From Brachyspira pilosicoli P43/6/78 (GTDB lineage Bacteria > Spirochaetota > Brachyspiria > Brachyspirales > Brachyspiraceae): a stretch of 64,000 bases of DNA. Below the pieces are notes generated by a model, which was not told the origin of the DNA, ran no database searches, and worked only from the letters and a program-made list of their open reading frames with translations. Where the stretch lies: the NCBI RefSeq assembly GCF_000325665.1, contig NC_019908.1, positions 1,488,001-1,552,000 of the forward strand, given 5' to 3'. Within the stretch, counting starts at the first letter, position 1. Every line of letters begins with the position of its first letter. Shown one piece after another: positions 7,719 through 41,374 of this stretch. A program made the position numbers and the translations under genes.

Positions 7719-9590
7719 ATGAAAAGTAAATATATAAAAGAACTATTATCCATTCTCTCTAATGAATCATATATCACAGCAGAAATGCTTGCAAAAAAAT
7801 TGCAAATAAGTGAAAAAACTGTAAGAATAAAAATAGCAGAATTAAATAAAGAATTAGAAAACACAGGAATTAAAGTAGTATCCAAAGCAAGATATGGTTA
7901 TATTTTAGAATGCGATAATCATAAAGATATGTCAAATATAAACCTTAATGCACATATATTTAACGATTTTGAATATAGATTAAAATACATATTTGAACAT
8001 CTTATTAATAATAATAATACATATATAAAATCTGATAATCTTATAAGTGCATTAGATATATCAAAAACAACACTAACAAATACATTAAAAATCATAGAAG
8101 ATAATATTAGATATTATAACTTAAAAATAGAACGCAAGCCAAATTATGGTATTAAATTAATTGGTAAAGAATTTGATATTAGAAACTGCATAATAGATTA
8201 TTATTTAAAACAGCAAATATATGATAAAAAATATATAAATAAAACTATAGAAAATATAGTAATTAATTTTATAAAGAAAAATGATATAAAACTATCTGAG
8301 GTAAACTTAGAAAACTTTATATTATATATTTCTGCATCAATAGAGAGAATAAAAGAAAATAAAAATATAAACGATTATAATGATGATAACATATTAAAAG
8401 ATGTAAAAAAAGAAGAATTGAAATTAGCAAGAAAATTAGCAAATATATTAGAAAAAGAATTAAATATAAAATTAAATGATACTGAAATAATTTTTATAGC
8501 AATTCATATAGCATCAAAAAGTTTATTATCAAATAGTGAAAATTATATTATACAAAACAAACTAGACAATGTAGTTCAGGATATGCTCGATTTGATATAC
8601 AATAATTTAAAAATAGATTTAAGAGATAATTTAAACTTAAGATTATTGCTTAACCATCATATGATACCGCTTGATATAAGAATAAGATATAATGTTTTAC
8701 AAAAAAATCCAATGCTTAGCGACATAAAAACAAATTATTCTCTAGCATACCTAATAGCATCAGAAGCTAATACTGTACTTAAAACATATTATAATAAAGA
8801 AATATCAGATGATGAAATTGGTTTTTTGGCATTATTATTTCAAATAGCTTTAGAGGAAAATAGCGAAGAGAAAAAGAAAATCAATATACTAATAGTATGC
8901 GGAAGCGGAAAAACTACTTCAAAGCTTCTTATGCATAAATATAAAAAAGAGTTTGCTGACTATATAGAAAATATTTATACTACAGATTTGATAATGCTTA
9001 AAGAGTTTGATTTTTCTAAAGTAGATTATATATTTTCTACAGTACCTATAGTTTTTCAAGTACCTGTTCCTATTGTTCATATAGGATTATTTTTAGAGAC
9101 TAATGATATTATAAAAGTAAAAAATGTACTAGATTTATCTGAAAATGATTTTTTAAATAATTATTATAATAAAAAATTATTCTCTACAAATATAACAGGA
9201 AACAGCAGAGAAGAGATTATAAAAAACATATGTAAAAATATTAAAAAATATATTAATATACCAGATAATTTTTATGATTTGGTAATGAAAAGAGAAAGCT
9301 TGTCAGAAACAGATTTCGGAAACCTTGTTGCAATTCCGCATCCTTTTGAAATTGTAACTGATGAAACTTTTGTATTTGTTGCTATATTAGAAAAGCCTAT
9401 TATATGGTATAAAAATAATGTGCAGGTTGTATTTTTAGTTTCTATATCAAATAAAAAAGATGATAATTTACAGAAGTTTTATCAATATACTGTTGACTTT
9501 TTGTTAAATGAAAAAAACGTGATAAAGCTTATAGAAAATAGAAGTTTTGAAAATCTAATGTATTTATTAAAAAATTCTTCGGGAGAATAA
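7719..9590 (+). CDS. LicR/MtlR-type PTS-regulated transcriptional activator
   Basis: A 623-residue multidomain regulator. It has an N-terminal HTH (about 5-60), a second winged helix (about 95-150), two PRDs (about 175-280 and 285-390), an EIIB-like domain with ILIVCGSGKTT (about 390-470), and an EIIA domain with VAIPHPFE (about 480-620). Such proteins activate PTS operons and are controlled by phosphorylation from HPr and the cognate IIB. It is divergent from the operon it most likely controls and abuts the HPr gene. In PRD2 the usual second histidine (LxLHF) reads LALLF, so one phosphorylation site appears lost. Confidence 0.88.
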   Translation: MKSKYIKELLSILSNESYITAEMLAKKLQISEKTVRIKIAELNKELENTGIKVVSKARYGYILECDNHKDMSNINLNAHIFNDFEYRLKYIFEHLINNNNTYIKSDNLISALDISKTTLTNTLKIIEDNIRYYNLKIERKPNYGIKLIGKEFDIRNCIIDYYLKQQIYDKKYINKTIENIVINFIKKNDIKLSEVNLENFILYISASIERIKENKNINDYNDDNILKDVKKEELKLARKLANILEKELNIKLNDTEIIFIAIHIASKSLLSNSENYIIQNKLDNVVQDMLDLIYNNLKIDLRDNLNLRLLLNHHMIPLDIRIRYNVLQKNPMLSDIKTNYSLAYLIASEANTVLKTYYNKEISDDEIGFLALLFQIALEENSEEKKKINILIVCGSGKTTSKLLMHKYKKEFADYIENIYTTDLIMLKEFDFSKVDYIFSTVPIVFQVPVPIVHIGLFLETNDIIKVKNVLDLSENDFLNNYYNKKLFSTNITGNSREEIIKNICKNIKKYINIPDNFYDLVMKRESLSETDFGNLVAIPHPFEIVTDETFVFVAILEKPIIWYKNNVQVVFLVSISNKKDDNLQKFYQYTVDFLLNEKNVIKLIENRSFENLMYLLKNSSGE

Positions 9591-31486: not shown

Positions 31487-32449
31487 ATGGTTAAATTTGC
31501 CGACTTAGGTCTTGTTAATAGTAGAGACCTTTTTAAAAAAGCTATTAGCGGCGGTTATGCTATTCCAGCATTTAACTTTAATAATATGGAACAACTTCAG
31601 GCTATAGTACAGGCTTGTGTAGAAACTAAAAGCCCTGTTATTATTCAAGTATCTTCTGGTGCTAGAAAATATGCTAATCAAACATTATTAAGATATATGG
31701 CTCAAGGAGCTGTGGAATATGCTAAAGAATTAGGTGTTAATGTACCTATAGTATTACACCTTGACCATGGTGATAGCTTAGAACTTTGTAAAAGCTGTAT
31801 TGAATATGGTTTCTCTTCTGTTATGATAGACGGAAGCCATCATGATTACAATACAAATGTTGAACTTACTAGAAGCGTTGTAGAGTATGCTCATAAATAT
31901 GATGTTACTGTTGAAGGAGAATTGGGTGTACTTGCTGGTGTAGAAGATGATGTTGTAGCTGAAAGTCATACTTATACTAGACCTGAAGAAGTAGAAGATT
32001 TCGTTAAAAAAACAGGTGTTGATTCACTTGCTATATCTATTGGTACTAGTCACGGTGCTTATAAATTCAAGCCTGGTCAAAACCCTCAAATAAGATTAGA
32101 TATTCTTAAAGAAATTGAGAAAAAGATTCCAGGATTTCCTATTGTACTTCATGGTTCTTCAAGCGTACCTCAAGAATATGTTAAAATGATTAATGAAAAT
32201 GGCGGTAAACTTGATGATGCTATAGGTATTCCAGAAGAGCAATTAAGAGAAGCTTCTAAGAGTGCAGTTTGTAAAATCAATATCGACAGCGATTCAAGAC
32301 TTGCTATGACTGCTGCTATTAGAAAAGTATTCCATGATAACCCTAAAGAATTTGACCCTCGTAAATATTTAGGACCTGCTCGTGATGAAATGAAAAAACT
32401 TTATATTCATAAAATAATGAATGTATTAGGTTCAAATGGTAAAATATAA
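31487..32449 (+). CDS. fba: Class II fructose-bisphosphate aldolase
   Basis: A 320-residue zinc aldolase with LHLDHGDSLE, EGELGVLAGVEDD, GTSHGAYKF and VLHGSSSVP, which carry the metal and substrate ligands. It interconverts fructose 1,6-bisphosphate with triose phosphates in glycolysis and gluconeogenesis. A TTGGAG site precedes the ATG by 6 bp. Codon use is the most regular in the window, as expected for a highly expressed gene. A tiny basic ORF follows 24 bp downstream. Confidence 0.97.
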   Translation: MVKFADLGLVNSRDLFKKAISGGYAIPAFNFNNMEQLQAIVQACVETKSPVIIQVSSGARKYANQTLLRYMAQGAVEYAKELGVNVPIVLHLDHGDSLELCKSCIEYGFSSVMIDGSHHDYNTNVELTRSVVEYAHKYDVTVEGELGVLAGVEDDVVAESHTYTRPEEVEDFVKKTGVDSLAISIGTSHGAYKFKPGQNPQIRLDILKEIEKKIPGFPIVLHGSSSVPQEYVKMINENGGKLDDAIGIPEEQLREASKSAVCKINIDSDSRLAMTAAIRKVFHDNPKEFDPRKYLGPARDEMKKLYIHKIMNVLGSNGKI

Positions 32450-32473: not shown

Positions 32474-32566
32474 GTGGGAAAACAACATAGAAAAGTAGTG
32501 AAACGCAAAAGAGCTTTAAGAAGAATCAAAAGACAAAAAGATGCTCTTAATGCTAAAGCTAAATAA
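32474..32566 (+). CDS. Very small, highly basic protein
   Basis: A 30-codon frame starts at a GTG with GGAG 9 bp upstream and begins MGKQHRKVVKRKRALRRIKR; about half the residues are Lys or Arg. Short proteins opening with MGK-HRKV-KRKRR occur in other spirochaetes and in Bacteroidetes/Chlorobi and look like ribosome-associated basic peptides. Its place between fba and a clean terminator suggests co-expression with aldolase at high level. Its function is not known. Confidence 0.7.
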   Translation: MGKQHRKVVKRKRALRRIKRQKDALNAKAK

Positions 32567-32579
32567 ACAAGATTTTTTT

Positions 32580-32615
32580 AAGGGTGTAAGTTTTTTCTTA
32601 TACCCTTAATTTTTT
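32580..32615 (+). terminator. Intrinsic terminator of fba and the small basic gene
   Basis: Arms AAGGGTGTAAG and CTTATACCCTT close on a T6 loop and are followed by a T run. Confidence 0.85.
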
Positions 32616-32732
32616 GTTAGTAATTTGATAATAAATCATTAGTAAAATAAATATATTTAATAAATAATTCAATATAATTAAAACATTTTATTTTTAAACA
32701 ACATTTAAAATTATTTTATTTAAGGTAGAAAA

Positions 32733-33641
32733 ATGAAAAAGATTATTATATCAATATTAGTAATATTTTTTGTAATCTCTTGTACTAATCAAAACAATGT
32801 AAATAATAAATCCCCTCTTGCAATTCAAACAGATTTTGGAAGAAAGGATAATGCTGTAGCAAGCATGTATGGGGTTGCTCTTAGTGTAGATAAAGATTTA
32901 AAAGTTTATGACCTTACACATGAAATACCTGCATACAATATATGGGAGGCTGCTTTAAGACTTGACCAAACTGCTAGGTATTGGCCTGAAGGTACTGTGT
33001 TTGTTAGTGTGGTAGACCCTGGTGTTGGTACTGATAGAAAATCGGTTGTTATGAAGACTAAAAATAATTATTACTTTGTTACTCCAGATAATGGTACTTT
33101 AACTTTTGTTGCAGAGTCTTTAGGAGTAGAAGAAGTAAGAGAAATTGATGAAGTAAAAAATAGACTTACAAACTCACAAGAATCATACACTTTCCATGGA
33201 AGAGATGTTTATGTTTATACTGGGGCTAAACTTGCCTCTAAGCAAATTACTTTTGAAGAGGTTGGTCAATCTTTAGGAACTAATATAACAAAAATTGAAT
33301 ATCAAAAAGCTAAATATGAGAATGGAGTTTTTTATGCTAATATACCTGTGCTTGATATTCAATATGGTAATGTATGGTCATCACTTCCTCGTAAATTAAT
33401 GATTGATAATGGAATTAATACGGGAGACACTCTCAATGTAAAAATATATAATTATAATGAGCTTGTATGGACTGGAGACGTTAAGCTTGTAAATACTTTT
33501 GGAGATGTACCTGAAAACGAAAATATGGCTTATTTTAATTCTGAACTTAATTTTTCTCTAGCTATTAATATGGGTAATTTCTCTGAAAGATATAAAGTAT
33601 ATAGCGGACCTAATTGGAGTATGGAAATTACAAAAAAATAA
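32733..33641 (+). CDS. SAM hydroxide adenosyltransferase (DUF62) as a lipoprotein
   Basis: 302 residues. The N-terminus ends in the lipobox VISC, so Cys17 would be lipidated after export. The rest is a DUF62/SAM hydrolase protein: QTDFGRKDNAV, VVDPGVGTDRK and TFHGRDVYVYTGA supply the Asp, Arg and His of the family's active site. Relatives hydrolyse S-adenosylmethionine to adenosine and methionine, and the halogenases FlA and SalL share the fold. Export of a SAM-using enzyme is unexpected. Upstream is the terminator of the aldolase unit. Confidence 0.85.
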   Translation: MKKIIISILVIFFVISCTNQNNVNNKSPLAIQTDFGRKDNAVASMYGVALSVDKDLKVYDLTHEIPAYNIWEAALRLDQTARYWPEGTVFVSVVDPGVGTDRKSVVMKTKNNYYFVTPDNGTLTFVAESLGVEEVREIDEVKNRLTNSQESYTFHGRDVYVYTGAKLASKQITFEEVGQSLGTNITKIEYQKAKYENGVFYANIPVLDIQYGNVWSSLPRKLMIDNGINTGDTLNVKIYNYNELVWTGDVKLVNTFGDVPENENMAYFNSELNFSLAINMGNFSERYKVYSGPNWSMEITKK

Positions 33642-39988: not shown

Positions 39989-41374
39989 TTATTTCAATAC
40001 AAATTTATTTAAGTATTCATAAACAAATATAGCAAGTATTATAAGCGGTATAATGTAACTGCTATAAAGTCTTAAATATGCAGGGAATTTAATTCCTTCA
40101 CCAGTATTAACCTCTTTAAGAAAATTATCAAATCCCCAGCCAAACTTTCTAGTACAGAAGAATAAAGTAACCAAAGCACCAAGAGGAAGTATATTATTAC
40201 TTACTATAAAGTCTAATAAATCAAGTATTACAGTACCCTCGCCCAAAGGATTAATATGTGATAAAACATTAAAACCTAAAGCAGTAGGCAAGCTTCCAAA
40301 GAACACTACGAAAAATAATATTACAGAAACTTTCTTTCTTGATAATCCAAACTTATCCATAGCAAAAGAATATATATTTTCAAATACAGCAATGATAGTA
40401 GTAAGAGCAGCCATAGCAAGGAATAAGAAGAATAAAGAGCCCCATAATCTTCCCAAAGGCATAGAGTTAAATATATTAGGCAAAGTAACAAAAGTTAATC
40501 CAGCTCCCTGACCAGGATTAACATTAAAAGCAAAACTAGCAGGAAATATTAAAAGACCAGCAAGCAAAGCTACTAATGTATCTAATGCTACAACTATAAG
40601 AGCTTCCCCTGTTAATCTTTGTTTTTTATCTATATAGCTTCCAAATATAGCCATTCCTCCCTGACCAACACTAAGAGAGAAGAAAGCCTGTCCAATAGCA
40701 GCATAAAATATACCAATAAAACCAGAAAATCCGCCGCCGAATAATTTATTGAAATCAGGAATTAAATAGAATTTTAATCCCTCAACAGCACCGTCTAAAG
40801 TTACAGCTCTTATTATTAACACTATAAGCAAAGCAAATAAAGATATCATCATAAACTTACTTGCTCTCTCAACTCCGTTTTGAAGCCCAAAAGAACAAAT
40901 TAGAATACCTATTAATACACTAACTCCCATCCACAAAATTAAAGTAGAAGGGCTTCCAAGTACGCCATTAAAAAAAGTTCCAATCTGATTAGCATCTAAT
41001 GAAGTAAACTTGCCAGTTAAAGTAAAATAAAAATAAGCTAAACACCAACCGCATATAGTAGTATAAAACAACATAAGAAGTACATTACCAATAATCTGAA
41101 CATAGCCTATTTTGTGCCAATGCTGACCTTTTTTCTCTAATTTTAGAAAAGAGTTAGATATATCATGGCCGCCGGCTCTCCCTACAGCAAACTCCATAAT
41201 CATAGGTATAGTACAAAATGCCACTATAGATATAATATAAAGTACAACAAATGCACCTCCGCCGTACTGACCTGTAATATAAGGAAATCTCCAAACATTA
41301 CCCATACCTACAGCACAGCCAGCCGAAACAAGTATAAACCCTAATCTGCTGCCAAGTTTTTCTCTCTCTTTCAT
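39989..41374 (-). CDS. Sodium-dependent amino-acid transporter (NSS/SNF family)
   Basis: A 461-residue protein with about 12 membrane segments. The N-terminal GFILVSAGCAVGMGNVWRFPYITGQYGGGAF is the diagnostic NSS sodium/substrate site. The absent long second loop and 12 segments fit bacterial Tna/MhsT-type symporters. It imports an amino acid with sodium across the inner membrane; the substrate is not predictable here. It is a single-gene unit divergent from rpoN. Confidence 0.94.
   Translation of the reverse strand: MKEREKLGSRLGFILVSAGCAVGMGNVWRFPYITGQYGGGAFVVLYIISIVAFCTIPMIMEFAVGRAGGHDISNSFLKLEKKGQHWHKIGYVQIIGNVLLMLFYTTICGWCLAYFYFTLTGKFTSLDANQIGTFFNGVLGSPSTLILWMGVSVLIGILICSFGLQNGVERASKFMMISLFALLIVLIIRAVTLDGAVEGLKFYLIPDFNKLFGGGFSGFIGIFYAAIGQAFFSLSVGQGGMAIFGSYIDKKQRLTGEALIVVALDTLVALLAGLLIFPASFAFNVNPGQGAGLTFVTLPNIFNSMPLGRLWGSLFFLFLAMAALTTIIAVFENIYSFAMDKFGLSRKKVSVILFFVVFFGSLPTALGFNVLSHINPLGEGTVILDLLDFIVSNNILPLGALVTLFFCTRKFGWGFDNFLKEVNTGEGIKFPAYLRLYSSYIIPLIILAIFVYEYLNKFVLK

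Follow-up and report, generated by a model that had tools for sequence, protein, structure and literature searches.

A gene in the window, the whole 64,000-nucleotide stretch of DNA analysed here, encodes a member of the SAM hydroxide adenosyltransferase (SAM_HAT) family behind a predicted lipoprotein signal. The reading we favour, with a probability of about one half (0.52), is that it is an exported, lipidated SAM hydrolase that would cut external SAM for methionine. The gene is real and conserved; the enzyme family is a familiar one, its location is the surprise, and a broad exported clade shares that location. Being a lipoprotein is a local variation, and what makes the case interesting is the clade's bearing on SAM as a nutrient.

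Family, active site and fold

The gene and its features are, in order along the window:

32578..32609, + strand: terminator-like hairpin upstream, 13 pairs followed by a T run (1 found against 0.3 expected in shuffles)
32722..32725, + strand: Shine-Dalgarno-like AAGG 5' of the start codon (sequence reading)
32733..33641, + strand: predicted gene for an exported SAM hydroxide adenosyltransferase-like lipoprotein, 302 codons plus stop
32733..32783, + strand: predicted signal peptide (residues 1-16) and lipobox VIS-C17 (sequence reading; kept in 25/25 Brachyspira genes)
32820..33266, + strand: SAM_HAT_N domain (PF01887), residues 30-178 (Pfam profile match)
33015..33017, + strand: D95, triad residue 1 (PH0463 alignment; invariant across 30 aligned sequences)
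33036..33038, + strand: R102, triad residue 2 (same alignment; invariant across the 30)
33195..33197, + strand: H155, triad residue 3 (same alignment; invariant across the 30)
33339..33617, + strand: SAM_HAT_C domain (PF20257), residues 203-295 (Pfam profile match)

Both domains score above their curated Pfam cut-offs (SAM_HAT_N, 2e-52 and 177.3 bits against 26.3; SAM_HAT_C, 6e-17 and 62.2 bits against 25.5). By alignment, D95, R102 and H155 correspond to D68, R75 and H127 of PH0463, the triad of the hydrolases named in the accessible text of PMC4859513, and the window protein also keeps D34 and N213. The earlier note had described a SAM-cleaving family member with an intact active site, and as sequence predictions both statements stand. 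An AlphaFold2 monomer model built from a 30-sequence input has a mean pLDDT of 92.7, and its PDB matches at E<=0.001 all belong to the SAM_HAT fold family (40/40), the solved relatives being SAM-dependent halogenases and proteins of the DUF62 group. Among named genomes, those of B. pilosicoli are nearest, with a protein 92-97% identical to that of the window; the genome of the window has no second PF01887 gene.

The shared fold, with chlorinases and fluorinases among these PDB matches, and the RefSeq name of an E. coli relative, 'SAM hydrolase/SAM-dependent halogenase family', raise the question of whether the protein is a SAM-dependent halogenase instead of a hydrolase. We regard this as extremely improbable, since the hydroxide triad is intact where halogenases have other residues (PMC4859513, accessible part) and the protein fails the fluorinase model TIGR04507, with 85.2 bits against an equivalog cut-off of 400. 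Another conceivable function, put forward earlier for Salinispora DUF62, is clearance of the wrong epimer, (R,S)-SAM: a preference for it is reported for one characterised DUF62 enzyme (PMC12120602, in the portion available), and NCBIfam names two archetypes (R)-SAM hydrolase. However, the window protein stays below the equivalog cut-offs of both (R)-SAM hydrolase models (NF053629, 111 against 470 bits; NF058624, 106 against 350 bits), and an extracellular enzyme would be unable to clean the cytoplasmic pool. The available portion of Tekel et al. 2025 (PMC12120602) itself doubts the clearance role and holds that some DUF62 enzymes may have another, unknown one. We consider clearance an unlikely function for this gene.

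A conserved lipoprotein-type signal

The N-terminus of the window protein, MKKIIISILVIFFVIS-C17, consists of a charged start, a hydrophobic run and a lipobox, i.e., a signal of the lipoprotein type. Charged start, hydrophobic run, lipobox Cys and triad are present in 25/25 Brachyspira genes and in the one gene of the sister genus (1/1), although the signal residues vary, whereas a lipobox is found in 0/19 signal-less relatives, one of which (L074) was flagged as signal-like by our crude rule owing to an upstream TTG. The crude lipobox rule passes 5 of the 42 non-overlapping window ORFs of >=150 aa, and at least one of the five, a transporter at 39989-41374, is likely a false positive, so the case for export is carried by conservation and not by the motif alone. 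On this basis the signal and lipobox in Brachyspira SAM_HAT are more than chance. The description as a lipoprotein in the earlier note thus holds as a prediction, which would place the protein outside the inner membrane, on the periplasmic or surface side. A cell-shaving study of B. pilosicoli exists (PMC4955376, accessible in part).

PF01887 is matched in 24/26 genus genomes (25 genes) and in 75/296 genomes of the phylum sample. No match was found in the fragmented genus genomes G147 (88% complete) and G155 (85% complete), nor in two other genomes of the family Brachyspiraceae. One further spirochaete locus, L037, has a lipobox too, and groups in the tree with Sebaldella and not with Brachyspira.

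The prediction of export is based on motifs only, and the N-terminus might instead be a cytoplasm-facing membrane anchor or the product of a wrongly called start. The earlier note had named a mapped start downstream of the lipobox as evidence against its view; we scanned the frame of the window gene and found that it contains no further ATG, GTG or TTG ahead of the first core strand, so that a start 3' of the lipobox would remove part of the core, and a mis-called start was rejected. The charged start, hydrophobic run and Cys recur in every Brachyspira gene, and in much of the related clade the signals are of the ordinary Sec type and look cleavable. A protein that is not truly exported is therefore very unlikely.

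Surroundings of the gene

Upstream of the gene are a class II aldolase (31487-32449), a small basic ORF and then the terminator-like hairpin, which suggests that the gene has its own promoter; the genes downstream encode a family-4 uracil-DNA glycosylase and a protein with ankyrin repeats. The gene order from aldolase to SAM_HAT is conserved in the sister genus. The small ORF between aldolase and terminator (32474-32566, + strand) is very basic, with 30 codons and a GTG start, and a recognisable copy lies 5' of SAM_HAT in 15/22 Brachyspiraceae loci, some of which overlap the same genome.

There are no SAM or methionine genes among the neighbours, and no RNA element (SAM riboswitch, T-box) matches Rfam at gathering score in the whole window. 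Probes for ECF and other importer genes gave no match near the gene (locus L052), i.e., the ECF-linked arrangement described below is absent, and PF07155 has no match in this genome and weak ones (best 9.5e-9) in 13/26 genus genomes. The same genome encodes metK and hence makes its own SAM, so that uptake of SAM is not essential. It also encodes two MetQ-type and two purine-nucleoside-type (Bmp) binding proteins, and no NupC-type nucleoside transporter.

Exported relatives in other bacteria

Export is not peculiar to the window gene. Exported relatives, most of them with a Sec signal of the ordinary kind, are present in Flavobacterium, Dyadobacter, Pasteurellaceae, Aeromonas, Helicobacter, Sebaldella and E. 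coli; the window protein is 57% identical to the E. coli gene product and 55% identical to those of Aeromonas and a Helicobacter phage record, all with Sec-type signals. A scan of species genomes gave 511 relatives, and among the best 80 of 511, which were retained, 65 lie outside Brachyspiraceae, with the triad in 65/65 and a signal in 62/65 by the crude rule, a set biased to exported forms because the query was from the exported clade. Two of the three called signal-less (L137, L151, L152) show plain signals by eye; the rule also reports a lipobox for some genes of the Sec type (L156 and L073, for example), and these were excluded from the lipoprotein count. Matches at E<=1e-60 amount to 10/296 in the Bacteroidota and 2/274 in the gamma-proteobacteria samples, and those at E<=1e-50 to 9/98 in the Fusobacteriota sample, where each sample includes its centre genome, picked for having the gene.

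The E. coli gene, whose signal was read in two copies, is found in 2374/5426 complete genomes and adjoins uvrD in the three loci read (L077, L078, L079). It behaves as a presence/absence gene between yigE (or ysgD) and uvrD, and in other E. coli genomes of the spread listing yigE and uvrD were matched without it. In Flavobacteriaceae, a TonB-dependent receptor gene accompanies SAM_HAT in 23/28 loci, mostly divergently (e.g., L105 3150-5801, - strand); a possible outer-membrane entry route for the substrate would fit this, although receptor genes are common there. A plasmid origin was rejected, as the E. coli, Aeromonas and one Listeria 'plasmid' record are chromosome-sized; the plasmid-collection records L071, L072 and L216 (2.9-4.9 Mb) are seemingly misfiled. 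A phage origin was rejected as well: the Helicobacter phage match fits a bacterial gene at a prophage edge, a situation reported for H. pylori (PMC11321410, accessible in part).

The predicted surface or periplasmic placement in a gut organism, with adenosine as predicted product, would also be expected if SAM were removed in order to affect others, either by starving neighbours or by adenosine acting on host cells or neighbouring bacteria. However, soil and water Bacteroidota have the same exported form, and the methionine signals in relatives suggest nutrition, which makes such a role improbable. The distribution also bears on the proposal in the earlier note that the enzyme acts on host or environmental SAM: environmental SAM gains independent support from the neighbourhood contrast and the methionine T-boxes of two relatives presented below, whereas nothing points to host SAM in particular, given that the exported form is shared with bacteria of soil and water.

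Signal-less relatives lie beside importer genes

In a tree of 52 rows the subfamily is set apart from other SAM_HATs (support 100/100), and its 18 signal-less rows form one group (support 98/89), so that the tree requires one change between signal and no signal. The exported rows as a single clade have a support of 17/0, and the donors and the number of transfers are likewise without support.

The two forms differ in their neighbours. With wide flanks, ECF A and T genes or an amino-acid ABC permease are found within 6 kb at 10/11 signal-less spirochaete loci; the count within 1.5 kb is 4/11, because the importer modules extend away from the SAM_HAT gene. The same A and T genes or permease are near 0/68 exported loci, searched up to 6 kb per side, five of which have a lone ABC-ATPase resemblance. 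Importers are also absent from the exported spirochaete loci with wide flanks (0/6) and from more distant spirochaete SAM_HATs (0/23, flanks about 1.5 kb, with 5 of the 23 yielding no ORF under the motif rule). In two groups that had not shaped the importer rule the pattern recurs: all three signal-less Fusobacteriota loci adjoin complete ECF S, A and T genes (3/3), against 0/5 exported Fusobacteriota, and ECF genes lie beside 0/9 exported Bacteroidota. The exported total is 0/88 (68 + 6 + 14 loci, a few perhaps from the same genomes). Fisher tests, which ignore relatedness, give p=0.0006 for spirochaetes (10/11 vs 0/6) and p=0.012 for Fusobacteriota (3/3 vs 0/6, including L155). The exceptions are L166 and Listeria L075, which are signal-less with no importer nearby. 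Genome G762 has two divergent copies, one of which (gamma-proteobacterial, with an unclear start) has no importer, and this locus was excluded from the 88.

Some loci show further arrangements. At L163, L169, L164 and L165, from treponeme-like genomes, two SAM_HAT genes are adjacent or flank one ECF module. The second copy makes up a branch by itself, a hint that there are two substrates, or two steps, that are related. At L056, beside an amino-acid ABC importer, a cobalamin riboswitch (8494-8711, - strand) lies just 3' of SAM_HAT and before a TonB-receptor-like gene.

Signs of methionine control in some relatives

Two signal-less SAM_HAT genes are preceded by T-boxes, in E. faecium (131-379 in L074, gene from 481) and in Listeria (4676-4925 in L075, gene from 4995), and both leaders read ATG/AUG (Met) at the specifier. 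The specifier position was calibrated on all 19 T-box matches of the two records; the simple rule yields a codon in 10/19, and the codon is correct in 6/6 NCBIfam-named controls (Val GTA, Trp TGG, Ser TCC, Leu CTT, Tyr TAC, Gly GGC), where a trpE fragment is just under its NCBIfam cut-off. A third ATG leader lies before a binding-protein-like gene in the E. faecium record. Before an ABC-permease-like gene, which has no NCBIfam name at the threshold used, the leader reads CAC. On the same E. faecium plasmid, the leader of an S-methylmethionine-permease-like gene that adjoins mmuM has AAAATGG at the specifier by eye, which the rule missed. The ten ECF-linked loci of spirochaetes and Fusobacteriota that were scanned gave neither a T-box nor a SAM riboswitch. 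At 22 exported-clade loci no Rfam element adjoins the gene, with a lone cobalamin riboswitch lying at the outer end of L104.

Upstream of the exported Aeromonas gene, at 32 bp, is a site that matches 13/16 positions of what we take to be the MetJ operator consensus (0.015 expected), the best in the 10.8 kb locus. Six upstream regions were tried, and the other five (3 E. coli and 2 Pasteurellaceae) have no MetJ-like site. Taken together, the neighbourhood contrast, the methionine T-boxes and the MetJ-like site suggest that this subfamily draws methionine for the cell from SAM met outside it, either by importing and then cutting it or by sending the hydrolase out.

The earlier note had also allowed for a related adenosyl compound, and the same chemistry could indeed operate outside the cell on another adenosyl or sulfonium compound, with SAM as a side substrate. 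The PF07155 importers are named for riboflavin and not for SAM, free extracellular SAM is not documented in this analysis, and the direct link to methionine exists for relatives only. On the other hand, the AUG T-box leaders of the two relatives indicate that methionine is the product, the adenosyl compound that most obviously yields it in this reaction is SAM, and D34, N213 and the triad are retained. We find a different main substrate doubtful.

A possible parallel comes from Streptococcus suis, where a 'component MtsA of methionine-regulated ECF transporter' adjoins a gene for 'RNA polymerase subunit delta' (PMC9423846, accessible in part). In the PDB, the structure 7ccg is that of a SAM-dependent chlorinase, yet its molecule is named 'DNA-directed RNA polymerase subunit delta'. 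Since the 'delta' name has thus been given to a protein of SAM_HAT fold, the S. suis pair may be the same system as the ECF-linked SAM_HAT, and this misnaming may hide SAM_HAT genes in streptococcal annotation.

Proposed role

If the favoured reading is correct, the gene product, a SAM hydrolase with the fold of the SAM hydroxide adenosyltransferases, would be exported by Sec, and lipidation at Cys17 would hold it outside the inner membrane. There the Asp-Arg-His triad would activate water for attack on C5' of SAM, probably set free by lysis or leakage of cells. The products, methionine and adenosine, could then enter via ordinary importers such as those served by the MetQ-type and Bmp-type binding proteins of the genome.

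We further propose, as a tentative generalisation with somewhat less than an even chance of being right, that one subfamily contains two interchangeable builds for SAM salvage. In the first, a PF07155-type ECF module or a polar-amino-acid ABC transporter would import SAM, and a cytoplasmic hydrolase would free the methionine. In the second, which occurs in outer-membrane bacteria, the hydrolase itself would be exported, as a lipoprotein in Brachyspira and as a Sec-secreted protein in E. coli and Bacteroidota. Family, triad, signal with its conservation, and the contrast of exported with importer-linked relatives come from the computation itself, whereas lipidation, SAM as the substrate, its external source, methionine supply as the purpose, the importer ligand and the enzyme activity are inferred. 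To our knowledge, no exported SAM_HAT member has been assayed, and the open literature searched, which excludes most subscription papers, yielded no publication on them.

The reason for bacterial hydrolysis of costly SAM is an open question. An enzyme sited outside the cell cannot have the cell's own cytoplasmic SAM as its target, and the contrast between exported and importer-linked forms, combined with methionine control, turns the question into simple growth tests. If the proposed role is true, free SAM could serve as a nutrient in the gut, in soil and in water, and 2374 of the 5426 complete E. coli genomes would carry a gene for using it. If the proposal of two builds is also true, one DUF62 branch would gain a physiological role, and SAM would be the ligand of an ECF S component now named for riboflavin.

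Comparison with known systems

The window protein has both domains, the fold and the Asp-Arg-His triad in common with the SAM hydroxide adenosyltransferases/DUF62 proteins (PH0463, MJ1651, Salinispora DUF62). However, the DUF62 members compared, from the PDB and typical of spirochaetes, have no signal peptide, whereas the window protein is a predicted lipoprotein in a strongly separated subfamily. The halogenases FlA, SalL and ClA1 share the fold and the C5' attack on SAM with its family, but halide-site residues replace the hydroxide triad (PMC4859513, accessible part). The ECF-linked signal-less SAM_HATs of treponemes, Fusobacteriota and Enterococcus belong to the subfamily of the window protein, are 44-52% identical to it and keep the triad; unlike the window gene, they have no signal and lie beside ECF S, A and T genes, with a Met T-box in Enterococcus. 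Within the exported clade, the E. coli product encoded between yigE and uvrD likewise keeps the triad at the 57% identity given above, and differs in having an ordinary Sec signal where the window protein has a lipobox.
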